From Streptomyces cadmiisoli (GTDB taxonomy: Bacteria > Actinomycetota > Actinomycetes > Streptomycetales > Streptomycetaceae): a stretch of 64,000 nt of DNA. This document shows positions 5,383-57,127 of this stretch, piece by piece. Within the stretch, counting starts at the first letter, position 1, and every line of letters begins with the position of its first letter. The notes under the pieces were generated by a model, which saw only the letters and a program-made list of their open reading frames with translations, had not been told where the DNA came from and ran no database searches. The stretch is taken from NCBI RefSeq assembly GCF_003261055.1, contig NZ_CP030073.1, positions 992,001 through 1,056,000 on the forward strand. Direction: 5' to 3'. The position numbers and the translations under genes were made by a program.

Positions 5383-8300
5383 ATGCTGGAAACCCCCGAG
5401 GCCGTGGTCGAGGCGCTCCGCGAGAACCACGACCGTCCCCACGGTGTGCAGCGCACCATCACCGCCGAGGAACTCGTCGAGGCGGCGGAACCCTTCGACA
5501 AGCCGGACGTCCTCGTCACCGCCCTGCTGGAGCTGATGACGGCGTACGAGTACACCGGCGAGCACCGCAAGTCGCCCGTCGTCTTCGCCCGGCTGCTCAA
5601 AGTGTGGGACACCGCTCCCGAGTCGTTCAGCCAGTGGGAGGCCCACCAGGTCTTCTGGCGCTTCAAGTGGGTGACGACGTCCCTGCTGCAGGTACCGGAC
5701 GTGCCGCTCGCGACCGTCGACGGCTGGATCGGCCGGATGCGCAGCCGCTACGAGGCGGCCGAGCACGGCATGCAGCCGGTGGCGGCGATGCGCTACCACG
5801 TCGCGGCGCACACCGGCGTCGGCCTGGCCGACGCCTTCGACCTGTGGGTCACCCGGCCCCGTACCGAGCTGAGTGACTGTGAGGCCTGCGAGATCCGGTA
5901 CCTCGCCGGACACCAGGTGACGACGGGCGAGGACGCGGCGGCCCTCGACACCTGGGCGCCCGTCCTGGCCGGCTCCACGGCGTGCAGCGAGGAACCGCAG
6001 ATGAGCCAGGCGCGCGCGCTGCTGCCGCTGGTGCGCCTCGGCCGTACCGACGAGGCCCGCTCCCACCACCTCACCGGCTACCGGCGGGTCCGCGGGAACA
6101 CCGGCATGATGCACGAGGTGGGTCTGCACGTGGAGTTCTGCGCCCTGACGCGCAACGAGGGCCGCGGCCTGGAGATCCTCGCCGAGAACCGGCCCCTGTA
6201 CGAAGCGACCGGCGCGCCGCTGGACCGCGTGGGCTTCCTCACCGGCGTGGAGGTACTGCTCGCCCGGCTGGTCGAGGACGGGCACGGCGCCACGCCCGTC
6301 GCCGGCCCGCCCGGCCGGAACTGGACCGCGCAGGAACTCCTCGCCCACGTCCGGTCCGAGGGGGACCGGCTCACCGCCGCCTTCGACGCGCGCAACGCCA
6401 CCACGGCCGTCGGGGAGCGCCGCCGGCTGCGCCTCGCCCAGGGTCCGCTGCTCGACGAACCGCTGCCGCTGGGACTGCGGACGTCCTCCGCCCGCCCGCA
6501 CGCCCCGGCCACCGCCCCGGCCGCCGTCCCCCCGGCCGCCACCCGGACGGAGGTGCCCGACGACTTCGTCACCCTGGTGCGCGAGGCACGCCGCATGGCG
6601 TCCGTGGGACACCCGGCAGGCATCCGGCTCTGGTCCCGTGTCGCGGAACGCCTCACCGACGGCACCGCGGTACACGACGACCGGCTCGGTCCGCCGGACC
6701 TGCTGCACGCGGAACTCGCCGAGCACCGCGCGCGCCTGCACGCGCAGGAGGACCGCACCGCGGACAGCGTCAGCGAGCTGAAGCGGAGCGCCGAGCTGTT
6801 CGAACGGCTCGAGATGCCCTGGCACGCCCTGTCCACCCGCACGCACGCCCTGGCCAGGGCCACGTCCCTCGACAGTGCCCCGCAGAGCTCGGAATCCGAG
6901 GAGGGCGACGGGACGGCCCCCGGCACCGGGCGGCCGGACGAGGACACCATCCGGGCCGGCATCGACGAGGCACTGCGCGAGCTGGAGCGGCTCAAGACCG
7001 AGGCCCCCCTCACGGGCGAGGCACGCGGCGCCGGGGAGGCCGCCTACGGTGCCGACGTGCAGACGGAGCGCGAGCTGGAGTGCCTCTCCGTACTGCACTC
7101 CTGCACCTTCGCCGCCTACGAGGAAGTACTGCGGCAGCTCCCGCAGGCCCCCGACTCCGCGATGGAGCGATTCGAGGAGACCGCTCGCCGGCTCCACGCC
7201 GAGGCCGAGCAGCTGGGCTTCCCCCACCAGGTGGCCAACGCACGGCAGTTCGTCGCCGATCTGGCCGCCCGCACCGGTGACCTGGCCCGCGCGGAGACGG
7301 AGCTGCGCGCCGCTCTGGAGGACATCGACGGGTCCGAGCGGCCCTGGCGCGCCACGCGCCCGCGCGCCATGCTCGCCCAGATGATGCTGGCCCAGGACGA
7401 ACCGGAAGCGGCCGTGGACCTGCTGCACCAGGTGATCGCGGATACCGTCCGCCACGACGACACGGAGTTCCCGCTCGCGCCGACGTACGCGCTGCTCGGC
7501 CATGCCGCCACGCACATGGGGGACTTCGGCGCGGCCGTACGTCATCTGTCCGAGGCCGCCACCCGCTACGACCACAAGGACGCGCCCGACGACGCCGCCG
7601 ACGTACGGCTCCAGCTCGCGGACGTCCTGGCCCGCAGCGGGCAGCAGGCCGACGCCGTCGCGGTCCTCGAGTCCGTACTCGCGGACGAGGCCGCGTCCTC
7701 GCTGGACGCACGACTGCGCGCCCAGGCCCGGCTGACGCTGGCGCGCGGACTGCGGGAGCTGGAGGAGTACCTGGCCTCGGCCGAGGAGTTCCTGCTTCTG
7801 GCGGACACCGTCGCCGGCTGGGAGGACGACGCCGCGATCCACACGCTGGTGGCGGCGGAGACCGCGACGGCGCTGGCGCTGGCCGACCGCTGGGACGCGG
7901 CCGGCACCGCCTACCAGCGCGCCGTCGCGTCCCACGCCGAGGCACCCAACCCGAGCCTGATCATGCACATGATGTGCGAGTTCGCACGTCTGGTCATGCT
8001 GGCCCAGGGACCGGACGGGCTGGACACGGCGCTGGCGCACCTGGCGGAGGCCGACGCGGTCGGGGCCGCCGTACCCGAGGGCACGGAGACCTTCGTCTCC
8101 TGGTTCGAGTCCGGCACCGTGCACTACCGCCGCGCCCGCGTCCTGGCGGAGGCCGAACGCTTCCCGGAGGCCCTGACCGAGGCGGAGGCGGCCATCGCCG
8201 CCCACGAACAGGGCGGCGAGCAGGGCGAGACGCCCCGCGCGGAAGCGGTCCGCATCGCGGCCCTGATCGAGGGGAACGGCCTGGAGCGGTTCAACGACGC

Positions 8301-8412
8301 GGTGGTCCGCCTGACCGCGGCATCCCGACGCTGCCGCCACGCGAACCTCCCCGAGGCGGCGCAGATCCTCGACGCCCTGCGCGAGGACTACCTGACCCGC
8401 CAACAGGCCTGA
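5383..8412 (+). CDS. Large tetratricopeptide-repeat protein coupled to HSP90
   Basis: This 1009-residue soluble protein is built from helical repeats. TPR-like units are most evident at about residues 600-960, for example GDLARAETELRAALEDIDG, EAAVDLLHQVIADTV, GDFGAAVRHLSEAATRY and GQQADAVAVLESVLADEAA. A low-complexity Ala/Pro segment near residues 365-385 separates an N-terminal helical region from this C-terminal repeat array. There is no signal peptide, membrane helix or catalytic motif. The gene starts immediately after the HSP90 stop codon with no gap, which implies one transcript and translational coupling. TPR proteins are the classic co-chaperones of eukaryotic HSP90, so a scaffold or adaptor role for the neighbouring bacterial HSP90 is an attractive inference without direct evidence. 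Confidence 0.5.
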   Translation: MLETPEAVVEALRENHDRPHGVQRTITAEELVEAAEPFDKPDVLVTALLELMTAYEYTGEHRKSPVVFARLLKVWDTAPESFSQWEAHQVFWRFKWVTTSLLQVPDVPLATVDGWIGRMRSRYEAAEHGMQPVAAMRYHVAAHTGVGLADAFDLWVTRPRTELSDCEACEIRYLAGHQVTTGEDAAALDTWAPVLAGSTACSEEPQMSQARALLPLVRLGRTDEARSHHLTGYRRVRGNTGMMHEVGLHVEFCALTRNEGRGLEILAENRPLYEATGAPLDRVGFLTGVEVLLARLVEDGHGATPVAGPPGRNWTAQELLAHVRSEGDRLTAAFDARNATTAVGERRRLRLAQGPLLDEPLPLGLRTSSARPHAPATAPAAVPPAATRTEVPDDFVTLVREARRMASVGHPAGIRLWSRVAERLTDGTAVHDDRLGPPDLLHAELAEHRARLHAQEDRTADSVSELKRSAELFERLEMPWHALSTRTHALARATSLDSAPQSSESEEGDGTAPGTGRPDEDTIRAGIDEALRELERLKTEAPLTGEARGAGEAAYGADVQTERELECLSVLHSCTFAAYEEVLRQLPQAPDSAMERFEETARRLHAEAEQLGFPHQVANARQFVADLAARTGDLARAETELRAALEDIDGSERPWRATRPRAMLAQMMLAQDEPEAAVDLLHQVIADTVRHDDTEFPLAPTYALLGHAATHMGDFGAAVRHLSEAATRYDHKDAPDDAADVRLQLADVLARSGQQADAVAVLESVLADEAASSLDARLRAQARLTLARGLRELEEYLASAEEFLLLADTVAGWEDDAAIHTLVAAETATALALADRWDAAGTAYQRAVASHAEAPNPSLIMHMMCEFARLVMLAQGPDGLDTALAHLAEADAVGAAVPEGTETFVSWFESGTVHYRRARVLAEAERFPEALTEAEAAIAAHEQGGEQGETPRAEAVRIAALIEGNGLERFNDAVVRLTAASRRCRHANLPEAAQILDALREDYLTRQQA

Positions 8413-8779
8413 CAACTCCCACCGTCCCGGGACCGACGCACCCTGCTGAAGACAGGCGTGGGTCCCGGGACGCCGGTTGCCGACCGGCAGACGACCGGCC
8501 GGGCGGGCCCCGAGATGCCTCAGAACCGTACGTGGACTTGTCGAGTACGCCCCCGACGGCACCGTGGAGAACGAGACGAGCAGGACCGTCCAGAACGAGA
8601 TCCGCTCAGCACCCTTCGGCAGCACACGCCCACTCCACACCTCGATGTGGGCTCTGGTCACACAAAGCTCGGGACGCATGGGCTCATCGCTCGCCCCGCT
8701 CCGTTGAGAACGGGGACGAGCCATGCGCTCGAAACGCGCTCGCGGCGGTCGGTGAGCAGGGGCTGAATGATCCGACCGG
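8413..8779. other. Intergenic region with terminator, otherwise no recognised feature
   Basis: About 370 bases between the TPR gene and the leftward small membrane protein. Apart from the hairpin at 8423-8472 I see no coding sequence with database-like character, no repeat and no clear promoter. Short open frames here have no convincing RBS. Confidence 0.5.
8423..8472 (+). terminator. Strong hairpin after the HSP90-TPR operon
   Basis: The arms CGTCCCGGGACC (8423-8434) and GGTCCCGGGACG (8461-8472) are perfectly complementary, with four more pairs (ACGC/GCGT) just inside. The hairpin lies 11 bases after the TPR-protein stop and ends the operon. Confidence 0.5.
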
Positions 8780-8974
8780 CTAGCCGCTCCGCGCCTCCCC
8801 CGTGCCTTCCGCCTGCGGCGGTGTGGTGGTTCCGCCCGGGACCAGGACGGCGAGGGTGTTGCGCGCTTCGAGTCGGAGCGTGCGGCGCCGCGCGAAGGTC
8901 GCGGTGAGCGCGAGGATCGAGACCGTGCCTCCGTAGAGCGCGGCGGCAATCGTGGAGAGGAGCCCGACCGTCAT
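8780..8974 (-). CDS. Small single-pass membrane protein (hypothetical)
   Basis: This 64-residue protein begins with a hydrophobic N-terminal helix (about residues 3-27, MTVGLLSTIAAALYGGTVSI and onward) followed by a basic stop-transfer cluster (FARRRTLRLEAR) and a polar Gly/Thr/Pro-rich tail. This is the layout of short predicted membrane proteins common in Streptomyces genomes. The ATG at 8974 follows a GAAAGG ribosome-binding sequence about 12 bases upstream. I do not know its function. It stands alone between a rightward terminator and the leftward catabolic operon. Confidence 0.5.
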   Translation of the reverse strand: MTVGLLSTIAAALYGGTVSILALTATFARRRTLRLEARNTLAVLVPGGTTTPPQAEGTGEARSG

Positions 8975-50042: not shown

Positions 50043-50720
50043 TCAGCGAGTCGACGCACGGCGCGGGGACGGCGTTATGCGGACCGGCTTCTCCACCGGC
50101 GCGCTCTCGAGGTCGTCGAGCTGCGCGACGATCGTGCCGCGCAGGTCGTCGTAGTCCTCGAAGCAGTGGTCGTTGAAGAGGGTGTAGCCCGTCCACATGA
50201 GATTGGCGCACACCCGTGCCGGCACCCGGCCCGTCTGCGCGCCCATGCCGACCAGCGCCACCGAACGGATGCTGCCCGGCGTTCTCTTGTTCTGCTGGTG
50301 GATCGCCTGGAACGCGGCGGCGCAGGCCAGGGCCACGTTCAGTGTGTCGCTGACGTTCTGCGACGACGTCTCCATCGTCGGTGTGGAGATCAGGAATCTC
50401 GGCTTGACCGCGCCGGACGCCACGCACACCGCGCTGCCCACCGGCAGCGATCCGGCGAACTGGCTCTGGATCGCCTTCTGCACCCTCAGCTGGATTCCCG
50501 CGCCGAGATACCGCTTGACGACCGCGTCGACCCCGCCGTCCATCCGGCCCCGGGAGTTGGTGGGGCTGACCCAGGCGTCGACGTCCTCGTCGAGCAGGGA
50601 GCCCCGACGGATCTCGATCTCCGGGGTGTCCGCGAACGCCGCTCGCCAGGCCTCCACCACTTCGGTGTTGATGTCGGTCAGCACCACCTTGAGCGGCGAC
50701 GGCACGCGGTCCACAGTCAT
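50043..50720 (-). CDS. Macro-domain protein (ADP-ribose binding), divergent from an ART fusion
   Basis: This 225-residue protein is a single macro domain. The segment DAWVSPTNSRGRMDGGVDA (about 49-67) is the macro ADP-ribose loop, with the usual VNAAN replaced by VSPTN (Asn55 retained) and GG kept; FLISTPTM and the C-terminal NVSDTLNVALACAAAFQAIHQ strand-helix complete the fold. Proteins of this kind bind or hydrolyse ADP-ribose from proteins, DNA or RNA. The ATG at 50720 has GGAG six bases upstream. It faces, 189 bp away, a gene fusing a UNG-like domain to an ADP-ribosyltransferase, which implies paired write/erase functions as in DarT/DarG (inference). Confidence 0.5.
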   Translation of the reverse strand: MTVDRVPSPLKVVLTDINTEVVEAWRAAFADTPEIEIRRGSLLDEDVDAWVSPTNSRGRMDGGVDAVVKRYLGAGIQLRVQKAIQSQFAGSLPVGSAVCVASGAVKPRFLISTPTMETSSQNVSDTLNVALACAAAFQAIHQQNKRTPGSIRSVALVGMGAQTGRVPARVCANLMWTGYTLFNDHCFEDYDDLRGTIVAQLDDLESAPVEKPVRITPSPRRASTR

Positions 50721-50772
50721 GGCTAACTCCGATCGGGAAGCGGTCACTCGACTGATCGGGACGCTACCGCGA

Positions 50773-50834
50773 CCCACTGACAGCGCAGCCGCTCGGACCG
50801 GTGGCCGCACGCGTCGGAAGCGACTGTCAGTGGG
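50773..50834. promoter_or_regulatory. 11-bp inverted repeat in the macro/UNG-ART promoter
   Basis: CCCACTGACAG (50773-50783) and CTGTCAGTGGG (50824-50834) are perfect inverted repeats 40 bp apart, centred in the 189-bp divergent region. This geometry suits a looping or two-site repressor serving both genes. Confidence 0.5.
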
Positions 50835-50909
50835 CTGCCCTAATCTCCTGTGCACCTTACGGATCAGTCCTTCCACCAGGACAGTTCAACCTCTCGGAGT
50901 CCGTCCACC

Positions 50910-52526
50910 ATGAGCGATGCCCGCACCCCCGCCACGCCCGACCCCAACGACCCGCTCGCCCTCGCGGAACTGTTCAAGGGCGGCGGTGAACCATGGCTTC
51001 CGCTGCTGAAGCCGGTCATCGAGGCGCAGCCGGACGCTGCCGCGTTCATCGGCCCCGGCCGCAGCCCGGAGGTCGTCCCTGTTCGCGAACTGACCTTCCA
51101 GGCGCTGAAGCCCAACGCGCCGCACAAGTGGAAGGTCGTGGTCTTCGGCCAGAATCCGTATCCGCGGCCGGAGAGCGCCACCGGCATCGCCATGTTCGAC
51201 AACACCTTCCACGACTGGAAGGACAGCCAGTTCGGCAGGGTCGTCAGCATCCGCTGCATCATCAAAGCGGCGGCGATGTGGAAGTACGGGATTCCCAAGA
51301 AGACCCCGATAGCCGACATTCGCGCGCTGCTGAAGGAGCGCGACACCGTGCAGCCGCCGGAGTGGTTCCAGGCGATGCTCACGCAGGGCGTGCTGCTGCT
51401 GAACGCGGCGCTGACGGCCAGCGGCGACGGCGCGATGGGCACCGACCGGCACACCCGGTTCTGGCGACCGGTCGCCGAGCGGGTCGTCGAGGAGATACTC
51501 AAGGCCAAGCAGAGCGCCGACGAGGAGGACCGCGGGGTCGTCTTCGCGTGGTGGGGGGCGCACGCGCGCAGCCTGAAGAAGGTCGTCCTCCAGCTCCAGA
51601 AGAAGTATCCCGAGGTCGAGGTCCGGCACATCGACCACGCCAATCCCGCGGCACAGGGCGACATCTTCTGCGACGGCGACCACTTCGAGATGGTGAACAA
51701 CGCCCTCGCATCGCTGGGCGCCGACCCGATCGACTGGCTGCCGAGCACCGGCTGGAACAATCTCGCGGCGGGCAGCGGTCAGGCCGGCGGTGATGTCGCG
51801 GACCGTATGGGCGCGTTCATCGCGTCCACCATGGAACTGCATCAGCTGTACCTCGACCGTCTCTCGGGGGTCAAGGACGAAGGTCTCGTCCTCCCCGCGA
51901 TCACCGGGATGTTCGACACTCCGCTGATGGAGTTCCGCGAGGCCGTCGCCCCGGTCGCCGGGCTGCTGTCCGGACTGGGCCATCACGTCGACCGTTCACA
52001 CGAGTTCGGCAAGCGGCGGGCCGACGAGGCGTCCGGCGGCCTGTCCGCCGAAGCGATCGCGGCTCTCTACCTCTACACGTGCGAGTCCACGTTCTACCGG
52101 GAGATCAACTCCGTCCTGCGCACCCCGGACCGGACCAGACTCGTCCCGTACCTGCCCTACCTGCGCCTGCTGTTCTCGGCGGTGTCACAACTCCCGGCGC
52201 GGACAGCTCCGTTGTGGCGCGGTGTGGCCCTGGACATGCGTGCGCAGTACCCGCTCGGCCGGACCGTGACCTGGTGGGGTGTTTCCTCGTGCACCTCCGA
52301 GCTGGGCGTGGCCAAGGCGTTCCTCGGCGGCCGGGGCAAACGGACGCTGTTCGAGGTCGTCCCCGCCCGAGCGGTGAGCATCCGCGACTTCTCCGCGTTC
52401 ACCAGCGAGGAGGAGTTCATCCTGCTGCCGGGAACGCAGTTGAAGGTCACGGACGTCAAGGCCGAGCGCGGCGGTCTGTGCACCGTGAAGCTGACGGAGG
52501 TGCAGGAGCAGACCCTGGTGTCCTGA
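50910..52526 (+). CDS. Uracil-DNA glycosylase-like domain fused to an R-S-E ADP-ribosyltransferase
   Basis: This 538-residue fusion has an N-terminal domain (about 50-285) that follows family-1 UNG closely. VFGQNPYP (80-85) replaces GQDPYH, GVLLLNAALT keeps the uracil-pocket Asn165, VVFAWWGAHA matches the next strand, and HANPAAQGDIFCDGDHF replaces the HPSPLS loop (His243 kept), ending with the UNG-like PIDW. The catalytic Asp of UNG is therefore Asn82, so base excision may be weak or altered. The C-terminal domain (about 330-530) is an R-S-E ADP-ribosyltransferase: PLWRGV (Arg437), WGVSSCTS (Ser/Thr loop, 456-463) and SEEEFILLPG (E500-x-E502), resembling arginine-type ARTs. ATG at 50910, CGGAG nine bases upstream. 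A macro-domain gene diverges from it. DNA-directed ADP-ribosylation or phage defence is inference. Confidence 0.5.
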   Translation: MSDARTPATPDPNDPLALAELFKGGGEPWLPLLKPVIEAQPDAAAFIGPGRSPEVVPVRELTFQALKPNAPHKWKVVVFGQNPYPRPESATGIAMFDNTFHDWKDSQFGRVVSIRCIIKAAAMWKYGIPKKTPIADIRALLKERDTVQPPEWFQAMLTQGVLLLNAALTASGDGAMGTDRHTRFWRPVAERVVEEILKAKQSADEEDRGVVFAWWGAHARSLKKVVLQLQKKYPEVEVRHIDHANPAAQGDIFCDGDHFEMVNNALASLGADPIDWLPSTGWNNLAAGSGQAGGDVADRMGAFIASTMELHQLYLDRLSGVKDEGLVLPAITGMFDTPLMEFREAVAPVAGLLSGLGHHVDRSHEFGKRRADEASGGLSAEAIAALYLYTCESTFYREINSVLRTPDRTRLVPYLPYLRLLFSAVSQLPARTAPLWRGVALDMRAQYPLGRTVTWWGVSSCTSELGVAKAFLGGRGKRTLFEVVPARAVSIRDFSAFTSEEEFILLPGTQLKVTDVKAERGGLCTVKLTEVQEQTLVS

Positions 52527-56779: not shown

Positions 56780-57127
56780 GTGACCCAAGATCCGCCGTCC
56801 CGCCTCGAGCTGCTGCGATTCGCCCGGCGCGTGTTCGTCCAGCAGGCCAGGGCGGGCCTGACACAGATCGACCGGTGGATCGCCGACGAGGAACGCCGGG
56901 AGACGGAACGCCGGCGCCGCCTTCTCGCCCGGCCTCCCGCGCCGGAGTGGCTCGTCGAACAGGGCCTCGGCGAGAGCACCGCGGTGTACGTCCATGTCGG
57001 CGACTGCCACATGGCAGGCAAGCGGTCCAAGGGCGTGCAACGCGATCAGGCGGTCCGGGCGCTGGCCGACGGAGTCGACGCCTGCCCGCACTGCCGACCC
57101 GACACACGGCTGGGAATCCTCGACTAG
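56780..57127 (+). CDS. DUF6233-type protein
   Basis: This 115-residue protein is typical of the multi-copy DUF6233 family seen in streptomycetes. A helical N-terminus (RLELLRFARRVFVQQARAGLTQIDRWIADEERR) is followed by the conserved RPPAPEWLVEQGLG, a VYVHVGDCHMAGKR motif and a C-terminal ACPHCRPDTRLGIL with a CxxC. The family has no established function; His and Cys residues hint at metal binding. The GTG at 56780 is the only reasonable start; a stem-loop precedes it closely. Confidence 0.5.
   Translation: MTQDPPSRLELLRFARRVFVQQARAGLTQIDRWIADEERRETERRRRLLARPPAPEWLVEQGLGESTAVYVHVGDCHMAGKRSKGVQRDQAVRALADGVDACPHCRPDTRLGILD

Follow-up and report, generated by a model that had tools for sequence, protein, structure and literature searches.

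The window analyzed in this study, i.e., the whole stretch of 64,000 nucleotides from Streptomyces cadmiisoli, contains two divergently oriented genes, one coding for a macrodomain protein and one coding for a protein in which a domain similar to uracil-DNA glycosylases (UNG) is joined to an ADP-ribosyltransferase (ART). The genes, domains, and predicted promoters are compiled in Table 1. For the macro gene, the ATG at position 50720 is the likely start codon and not position 50876 of the longest frame. The likely start of the fusion gene, referred to as UNG-ART, is the ATG at position 50910, which has a GGAG motif upstream (recognized by eye) and fits the numbering of the residues H243, R437, and E500/E502 used below. 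Elsewhere in the window, a DUF6233 protein (Pfam assignment) is encoded at positions 56780-57127 on the plus strand, downstream of a rhamnosidase gene.

Table 1. Features of the macro/UNG-ART locus with their positions in the window.
Feature	Position	Strand	Description
Macrodomain gene	50043..50720	-	225 aa; PF01661
Predicted RecA-NDp/PafBC-type promoter of the macro gene	50761..50783	-	CTGTCAGTG-N8-TAGCGT
Predicted RecA-NDp/PafBC-type promoter of UNG-ART	50824..50846	+	CTGTCAGTG-N8-TAATCT
UNG-ART fusion gene	50910..52526	+	538 aa; open frame reaches up to 50850
UNG-like domain	50964..51740	+	residues ~19-277; based on PDB UNG matches/alignments and invariance
Helical linker and R-S-E ART domain	51765..52523	+	residues 286-538; Pfam match ~372-532

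All of the 42 matches that the UNG part gave against PDB sequences at E ≤ 1 are named uracil-DNA or DNA glycosylases, with 5x3g being the best one (E 9.6e-16). NCBIfam UNG models recognized the same part with E values down to 8.7e-20, yet with only 71.5 bits compared to a cut-off of 162, and the Pfam scan of UNG-ART yielded no UNG model at E ≤ 1. Since the scores lie far under the NCBIfam cut-offs, the domain has to be regarded as a divergent UNG, which, judged by its sequence, is homologous to family-1 UNG. In E. coli UNG, the residues D64, F77, L191, N123, and H187 have known roles. Alignment to 3tr7 places N82 of the motif A sequence GQNPYP at the position of the catalytic Asp, M95 at that of the Phe, and A247 at that of the intercalating Leu, whereas N165 and H243 coincide with the canonical pocket Asn and the canonical His of motif B; a further difference to family-1 UNG is the fused ART. 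None of the residues G80-Q81-N82-P83-Y84-P85, M95, F96, N165, H243, N245, P246, and A247 varies among 133 UNG-ART sequences. Thus, the catalytic Asp of the GQDPY motif is absent and replaced by Asn in 133/133 sequences, and it is kept in all 16 other UNG loci that were read (two of which represent one gene). Because the pocket with N82, M95, and A247 is invariant, the change is fixed and does not reflect decay. The exchange of Asp for Asn is by itself no proof of a lost glycosylase activity, and the domain most likely binds a base or a lesion with poor or changed catalysis. UdgX is a uracil-DNA-binding relative of family-1 UNG. The source genome (10.24 Mb, two contigs) possesses two further UNGs, both of the Asp type. 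The second Asp-type UNG (L170, G000:C1:7574100-7574705), which shows the motifs GQDPYP and HPSPMS, scores slightly under the family cut-off; the source genome thus contains three UNG-like genes.

The ART part matches PF01129, the family of NAD:arginine ADP-ribosyltransferases, with 41.1 bits (cut-off 22.3) and carries the motif residues R437, S459/S460, and E500-x-E502, the latter being aligned with the E-x-E of Vis. R437, S459, and S460 are present in 132/132 and E500 and E502 in 131/131 of the sequences covering these positions, so that all residues singled out in the initial annotation (Arg437, the Ser loop, E500/E502, and His243) turned out to be invariant wherever they are covered. Among PDB sequences, a profile of 52 relatives matched Vis (E 2.7e-5) as well as 6dre/6drh (E 0.006-0.007). 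For the ART part, AlphaFold2 yielded a model with a pLDDT of 75.4 and a pTM of 0.74. The best Foldseek matches of this model were Vis (E 3.4e-9, TM by query 0.49) as well as the ART of 6drh, which we take to be Tre1 (E 8e-8 and 2e-7, TM 0.53-0.56). HopU1, XopAI, ART2.2, and C3-type ARTs likewise appeared among the matches listed (TM by query about 0.44-0.56), whereby the specificity of the C3-type enzymes differs from the arginine type. Sequence and modeled fold together assign the ART part to the R-S-E, E-x-E class, with Vis and the 6drh ART as its nearest predicted relatives, and the model agrees with the earlier assumption that this domain keeps its fold. ARTs of this class usually modify arginine in proteins. 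To our knowledge, Vis and the 6drh ART are toxins or effectors that have neither an UNG domain nor a macrodomain partner. DNA, to which the UNG part could guide the ART according to the initial annotation, would be only a candidate target.

The macro protein matches PF01661 with 42.0 bits (cut-off 22). With a pLDDT of 56.5, the model obtained for it by AlphaFold2 is of poor quality, so the assignment of the macrodomain fold is based on the sequence. N54 (130/130 sequences) and D64 (131/131 sequences) are aligned with an N and a D of DR_2288, and their spacing is presumably that of the MacroD catalytic pair. The presumed catalytic residues of both the ART and the macrodomain are invariant in the sequences compared. 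In two loci (L092 and L099) the macro range holds stops, and in L163, one of the fused loci described below, part of the macro match lies in another frame; this may be due to decay or to sequencing errors.

The UNG-ART fusion was found in 66 of 392 Streptomyces genomes, including the source genome and one genome in which the gene is split over two contigs; as three candidates per genome were scored, 66/392 is a lower bound. When the same 392 genomes were searched with the macro protein, 67 were positive at E ≤ 1e-10; one of these has only a fragment of 46 residues, and the remaining 66 genomes are identical to the fusion-positive set. The macro gene is thus an obligate partner of UNG-ART wherever the assembly permits a check. 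Remnants of UNG-ART of about 60 residues were seen at G090:C1:1788869-1789066 and G012:C1:3005183-3005362, and a remnant of the macro gene at G017:C253:3859-3996; in these cases a loss of the module is possible. From a search of contig records, the best 80 of 109 relatives were studied, which show 76-90% identity and originate from Streptomyces, Kitasatospora, Nonomuraea, Nocardia, Micromonospora, Catellatospora, Dactylosporangium, and other actinomycetes. None of the 133 UNG-ART sequences, that of the window included, contains a stop, and 132 of them reach the ART domain. The fusion is therefore no assembly artefact, and its description as a real and conserved UNG-like/ART protein in the initial annotation is borne out.

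Broader scans, for which scoring covered the best 3 or 9 candidates of each genome, gave full-length matches in 3 of 396 phylum-wide genomes, which all belong to Streptomyces and include the source genome, and, with the ART profile, hits in 7 Streptomyces (source genome included) plus one other ART in 296 genomes of the class. At L210, another ART protein with a frame of about 520 aa and an E-x-E motif is encoded in a member of another actinomycete family; no UNG region was recognized in it by eye. Matches were also obtained in 38 of 72,556 plasmid records. Four of these are full-length copies, two of which are carried by replicons as large as 5.7 and 11.9 Mb; among the other 34, the 21 listed are UNG-region matches from Sinorhizobium/Ensifer with about 26-27% identity, and the one Ensifer sequence that was read has GQDPY. 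A phage origin was considered and rejected, as there was no match in 50,697 phage records and none of the 35 IMG/VR stretches fitting one of two peptide patterns was confirmed. In 10 of the 11 carrier contigs of at least 7.6 Mb examined, the module is located at most 1.7 Mb from a contig end.

For the analysis of gene arrangement, 154 loci were reduced by removing identical copies to 134 distinct loci, which include that of the window and three plasmid records. The macro gene is divergent from UNG-ART in 82 of these, lies upstream in the same direction in 24, and is fused to UNG-ART in one single frame in 25. A macro gene facing the fusion, as initially annotated for the window, is hence the most frequent of these arrangements; the pair as such, in any arrangement, co-occurs in 66/66 positive genomes. 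The remaining three loci are assembly breaks: in two of them the macro gene is found on another contig of the same genome, and the third is the second half of a contig-split gene, the first half of which was counted with its macro gene. The order in the fused frame is macro-UNG-ART, and the macro part comes first in all 49 same-strand loci. The linkers within the fused proteins have a high content of Pro, Ala, Thr, or Gly. The fusion on a plasmid of Streptomyces sp. Caat 7-52 has been annotated as one CDS and has its own protein accession. By parsimony, seven changes of arrangement are needed on a FastTree tree (130 rows), with the pair being kept throughout; when only well-supported branches were considered, 1, 3, and 4 changes were obtained for the three arrangement classes. 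L131 is the only locus with a gap of more than about 0.5 kb between macro and UNG-ART. Here, 2.3 kb (6500-8830) with an apparent sigma-factor gene, recognized by eye, and the gene following it are located in between. A conserved operon extending beyond these two genes was rejected, since each further neighbor is shared by at most 7 of 80 loci (frames of at least 100 aa, some flanks being ended by contig ends).

The intergenic region of the window was found to contain both matches of the pattern YTGTCRGTG-N8-TAnnnT that occur in the 64 kb, one for each of the divergent genes, and 100 shuffles gave 0 matches. The published consensus of LexA/RecA-independent promoters reads tTGTCRgtg-8 nt-TannnT (PMC5656591), whereby both sites of the window start with C at the base that is printed in lower case (t) in the consensus. 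The UV-inducible recA promoter of Streptomyces (S. rimosus) is given as TTGTCAGTGGC-N6-TAGggT, and ung, uvrB, dinG, and dnaE are named as S. coelicolor genes with related motifs (PMC2375139). In mycobacteria, PafBC is the regulator of RecA-NDp-type promoters (PMC8223512, PMC6789036). In the source genome, the pattern with T as first base occurs 41 times, a count that lies outside the two C-first sites of the window, and the mirrored form 0 times. Ten repair-looking downstream products were picked from 30 loci, and eight of them had a Pfam match, namely RecA, UvrD, a DnaX-type and a DnaE-type protein, MGMT, UvrB, UvrA, and MgsA; the other two had no Pfam match at E ≤ 1e-10, and several products among the remaining 20 loci returned are unlike repair genes. 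One T-first site ends 65 bases before a canonical ung match. The source genome thus seems to hold a regulon of the RecA-NDp type (41 places, G000; L173-L202), with two sites before recA and further ones at uvrA, uvrB, uvrD, dnaE, dnaX, the MGMT and MgsA genes, and ung. This contrasts with a LexA study, the initial search of which pointed to a lack of conservation of the mycobacterial PafBC motif in S. venezuelae (PMC9380542).

Among 130 loci (the 3 loci without a macro gene and L131 being left out), the strict pattern precedes the macro gene in 98 loci and UNG-ART in 12 of the 81 divergent ones; in the 1.31 Mb covered, it occurs at 2 other places. A pattern with looser requirements (TGTCRG-N10-TAnnnY), which was written after the regions had been inspected, is present before the macro gene in 121/130 and before UNG-ART in 41/81 divergent loci, with 6 occurrences elsewhere. 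On the macro side, the looser pattern is missing in all 7 loci from Catellatospora, Dactylosporangium, and Virgisporangium, in one from Nocardia, and in one fused Streptomyces locus; on the UNG-ART side, the motif is missing in 10/10 Nonomuraea loci. The LexA box GAAC-N4-GTTC was found in 0/81 divergent intergenic regions, that of the window included. Overall, the macro and UNG-ART genes mostly start behind predicted promoters of the RecA-NDp/PafBC type.

An ART gene adjoining a macrodomain gene is reminiscent of DarT/DarG, yet the two systems would share only the logic of reversible ART-macro pairs, as the module described here has another class of ART and of macrodomain, an UNG-like domain, damage-type promoters, and natural macro-ART fusions. 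An identity with DarT/DarG was rejected: PADLOC assigned the fusion to no family at E ≤ 1, and the macro protein matched DarG with 12.4 bits (E 0.02). Neither protein passes as DarT or DarG, in agreement with the initial annotation. Damage-linked ADP-ribosylation with an eraser is also known from eukaryotic PARP1/PARG, and macro-PARPs have macro and ART on one chain, but the PARP catalytic domain is of the H-Y-E class and PARPs are not known to have an UNG reader. The sirtuin-macro module of the Streptomyces phage Moab likewise combines an ADP-ribosylating enzyme with a macrodomain in an actinobacterial context, whereas it uses a sirtuin instead of an ART and is phage-borne, and the terms glycosylase and uracil have 0 occurrences in the paper (PMC9503650). 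SCO6735 from S. coelicolor is a Streptomyces macrodomain with a RecA-NDp promoter and a link to DNA damage, but it is of the TARG1/ALC1 type, its upstream neighbor is a permease, and the endogenous transferase is called unknown in the reports (PMC5087735, PMC9411070). Among the titles and beginnings of abstracts listed in a search of open-access literature, none described such an architecture. An ART with a macro partner is a known kind of system; it is the UNG-ART-macro architecture together with its regulatory setting for which no description was found.

The best reading of the locus, to which we give about an even chance, is a damage-inducible and reversible ADP-ribosylation module with an UNG-derived lesion reader. 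DNA damage would raise both the UNG-ART and the macro protein, and the UNG-derived domain, whose glycosylase activity is probably weak or lost, would bind uracil, abasic, or otherwise flipped-base lesions and bring the ART to such a site or activate it there. The ART would then modify arginines of proteins in the vicinity, or itself, with ADP-ribose, whereby the mark could alter repair, replication, or growth, and the macrodomain would read or remove it, making the response limited and reversible. The co-occurrence in 66/66 genomes, the 25 fusions and 24 co-directional pairs, the preservation of the pair through the changes of arrangement, the invariant residues, the promoters, and the two additional Asp-type UNGs of the source genome argue for this module. 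A precedent is the S. coelicolor macrodomain SCO6735, which has a RecA-NDp promoter and is UV-inducible (PMC5087735). The motif gaps across loci and the S. venezuelae report (PMC9380542) weigh against it, and the patchy presence (66/392) equally fits an accessory, conflict-type system.

Such a system is the content of the main rival, a function in anti-phage defense, abortive infection, or as toxin-antitoxin pair, in which the UNG-like domain would sense a phage trigger, the ART would arrest the cell, and the macrodomain would be the antidote. We regard this as possible but less probable; the trigger would be uracil in phage DNA, DNA damage brought about by the phage, or an UNG inhibitor that the phage makes. 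Phage defense would be in line with the obligate ART-macro pairing and the macro-first order in the 49 same-strand loci, with the presence in 66/392 genomes, with the varying flanks (no third gene in more than 7/80 loci), and with the 4 full-length plasmid copies (72,556 records searched), including those on the 5.7 and 11.9 Mb replicons; furthermore, DNA damage can also come from phage infection. However, PADLOC has no family for the fusion and found DarG for the macro protein only at E 0.02, Pfam recognized no defense family in five flanking genes, the promoters are of the repair-regulon type, and macro and ART share one chain in 25 loci, which is unusual for an antitoxin and its toxin. A damage module and phage defense are not far apart, and a damage-induced arrest could serve damage response and phage defense alike.

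It appears improbable that the module works like DarTG, with the ART being guided by the UNG domain to ADP-ribosylate DNA bases and the macro protein acting as DarG-type DNA-ADP-ribosylhydrolase. An ART with a macro partner and an attached UNG-like domain would suit such a mechanism, but the ART matches PF01129, Vis, and 6dre/6drh and has an E-x-E motif, PADLOC gave no DarT match, and the macro protein is not DarG and carries N and D in its alignment with DR_2288. We also see little chance for the UNG-like domain being a functional base-excision enzyme that uses Asn as an unusual catalytic residue, with ART and macro tuning repair at the abasic site it would make: although Y84, N165, and H243 are kept in 133/133 sequences and an Asn at the catalytic Asp position is used by other UDG families, the alignment combines the exchanges D to N, F to M, and L to A, and these sites matter for family-1 UNG catalysis.

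Altogether, the earlier interpretation is supported in part: the conserved fusion, the obligate macro partner, and the distinction from DarTG stand, and a DNA-modifying ART would be a candidate reading. The 25 fusions in the order macro-UNG-ART, the UNG pocket with its changed yet invariant residues, and the damage-type promoters of both genes go beyond it and shift the best reading from a toxin against phage DNA toward a damage-response module. If phage defense were true, the locus would represent an ART system with an UNG-like sensor, of which none was met in the literature searched. As a damage-response module, it may correspond in bacteria to the damage signaling known from animal cells. 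An ART, a domain of the DNA-lesion type, a macrodomain, and a damage-type promoter are brought together here in one compact unit, by which bacterial ADP-ribose signaling at DNA damage would become directly testable.
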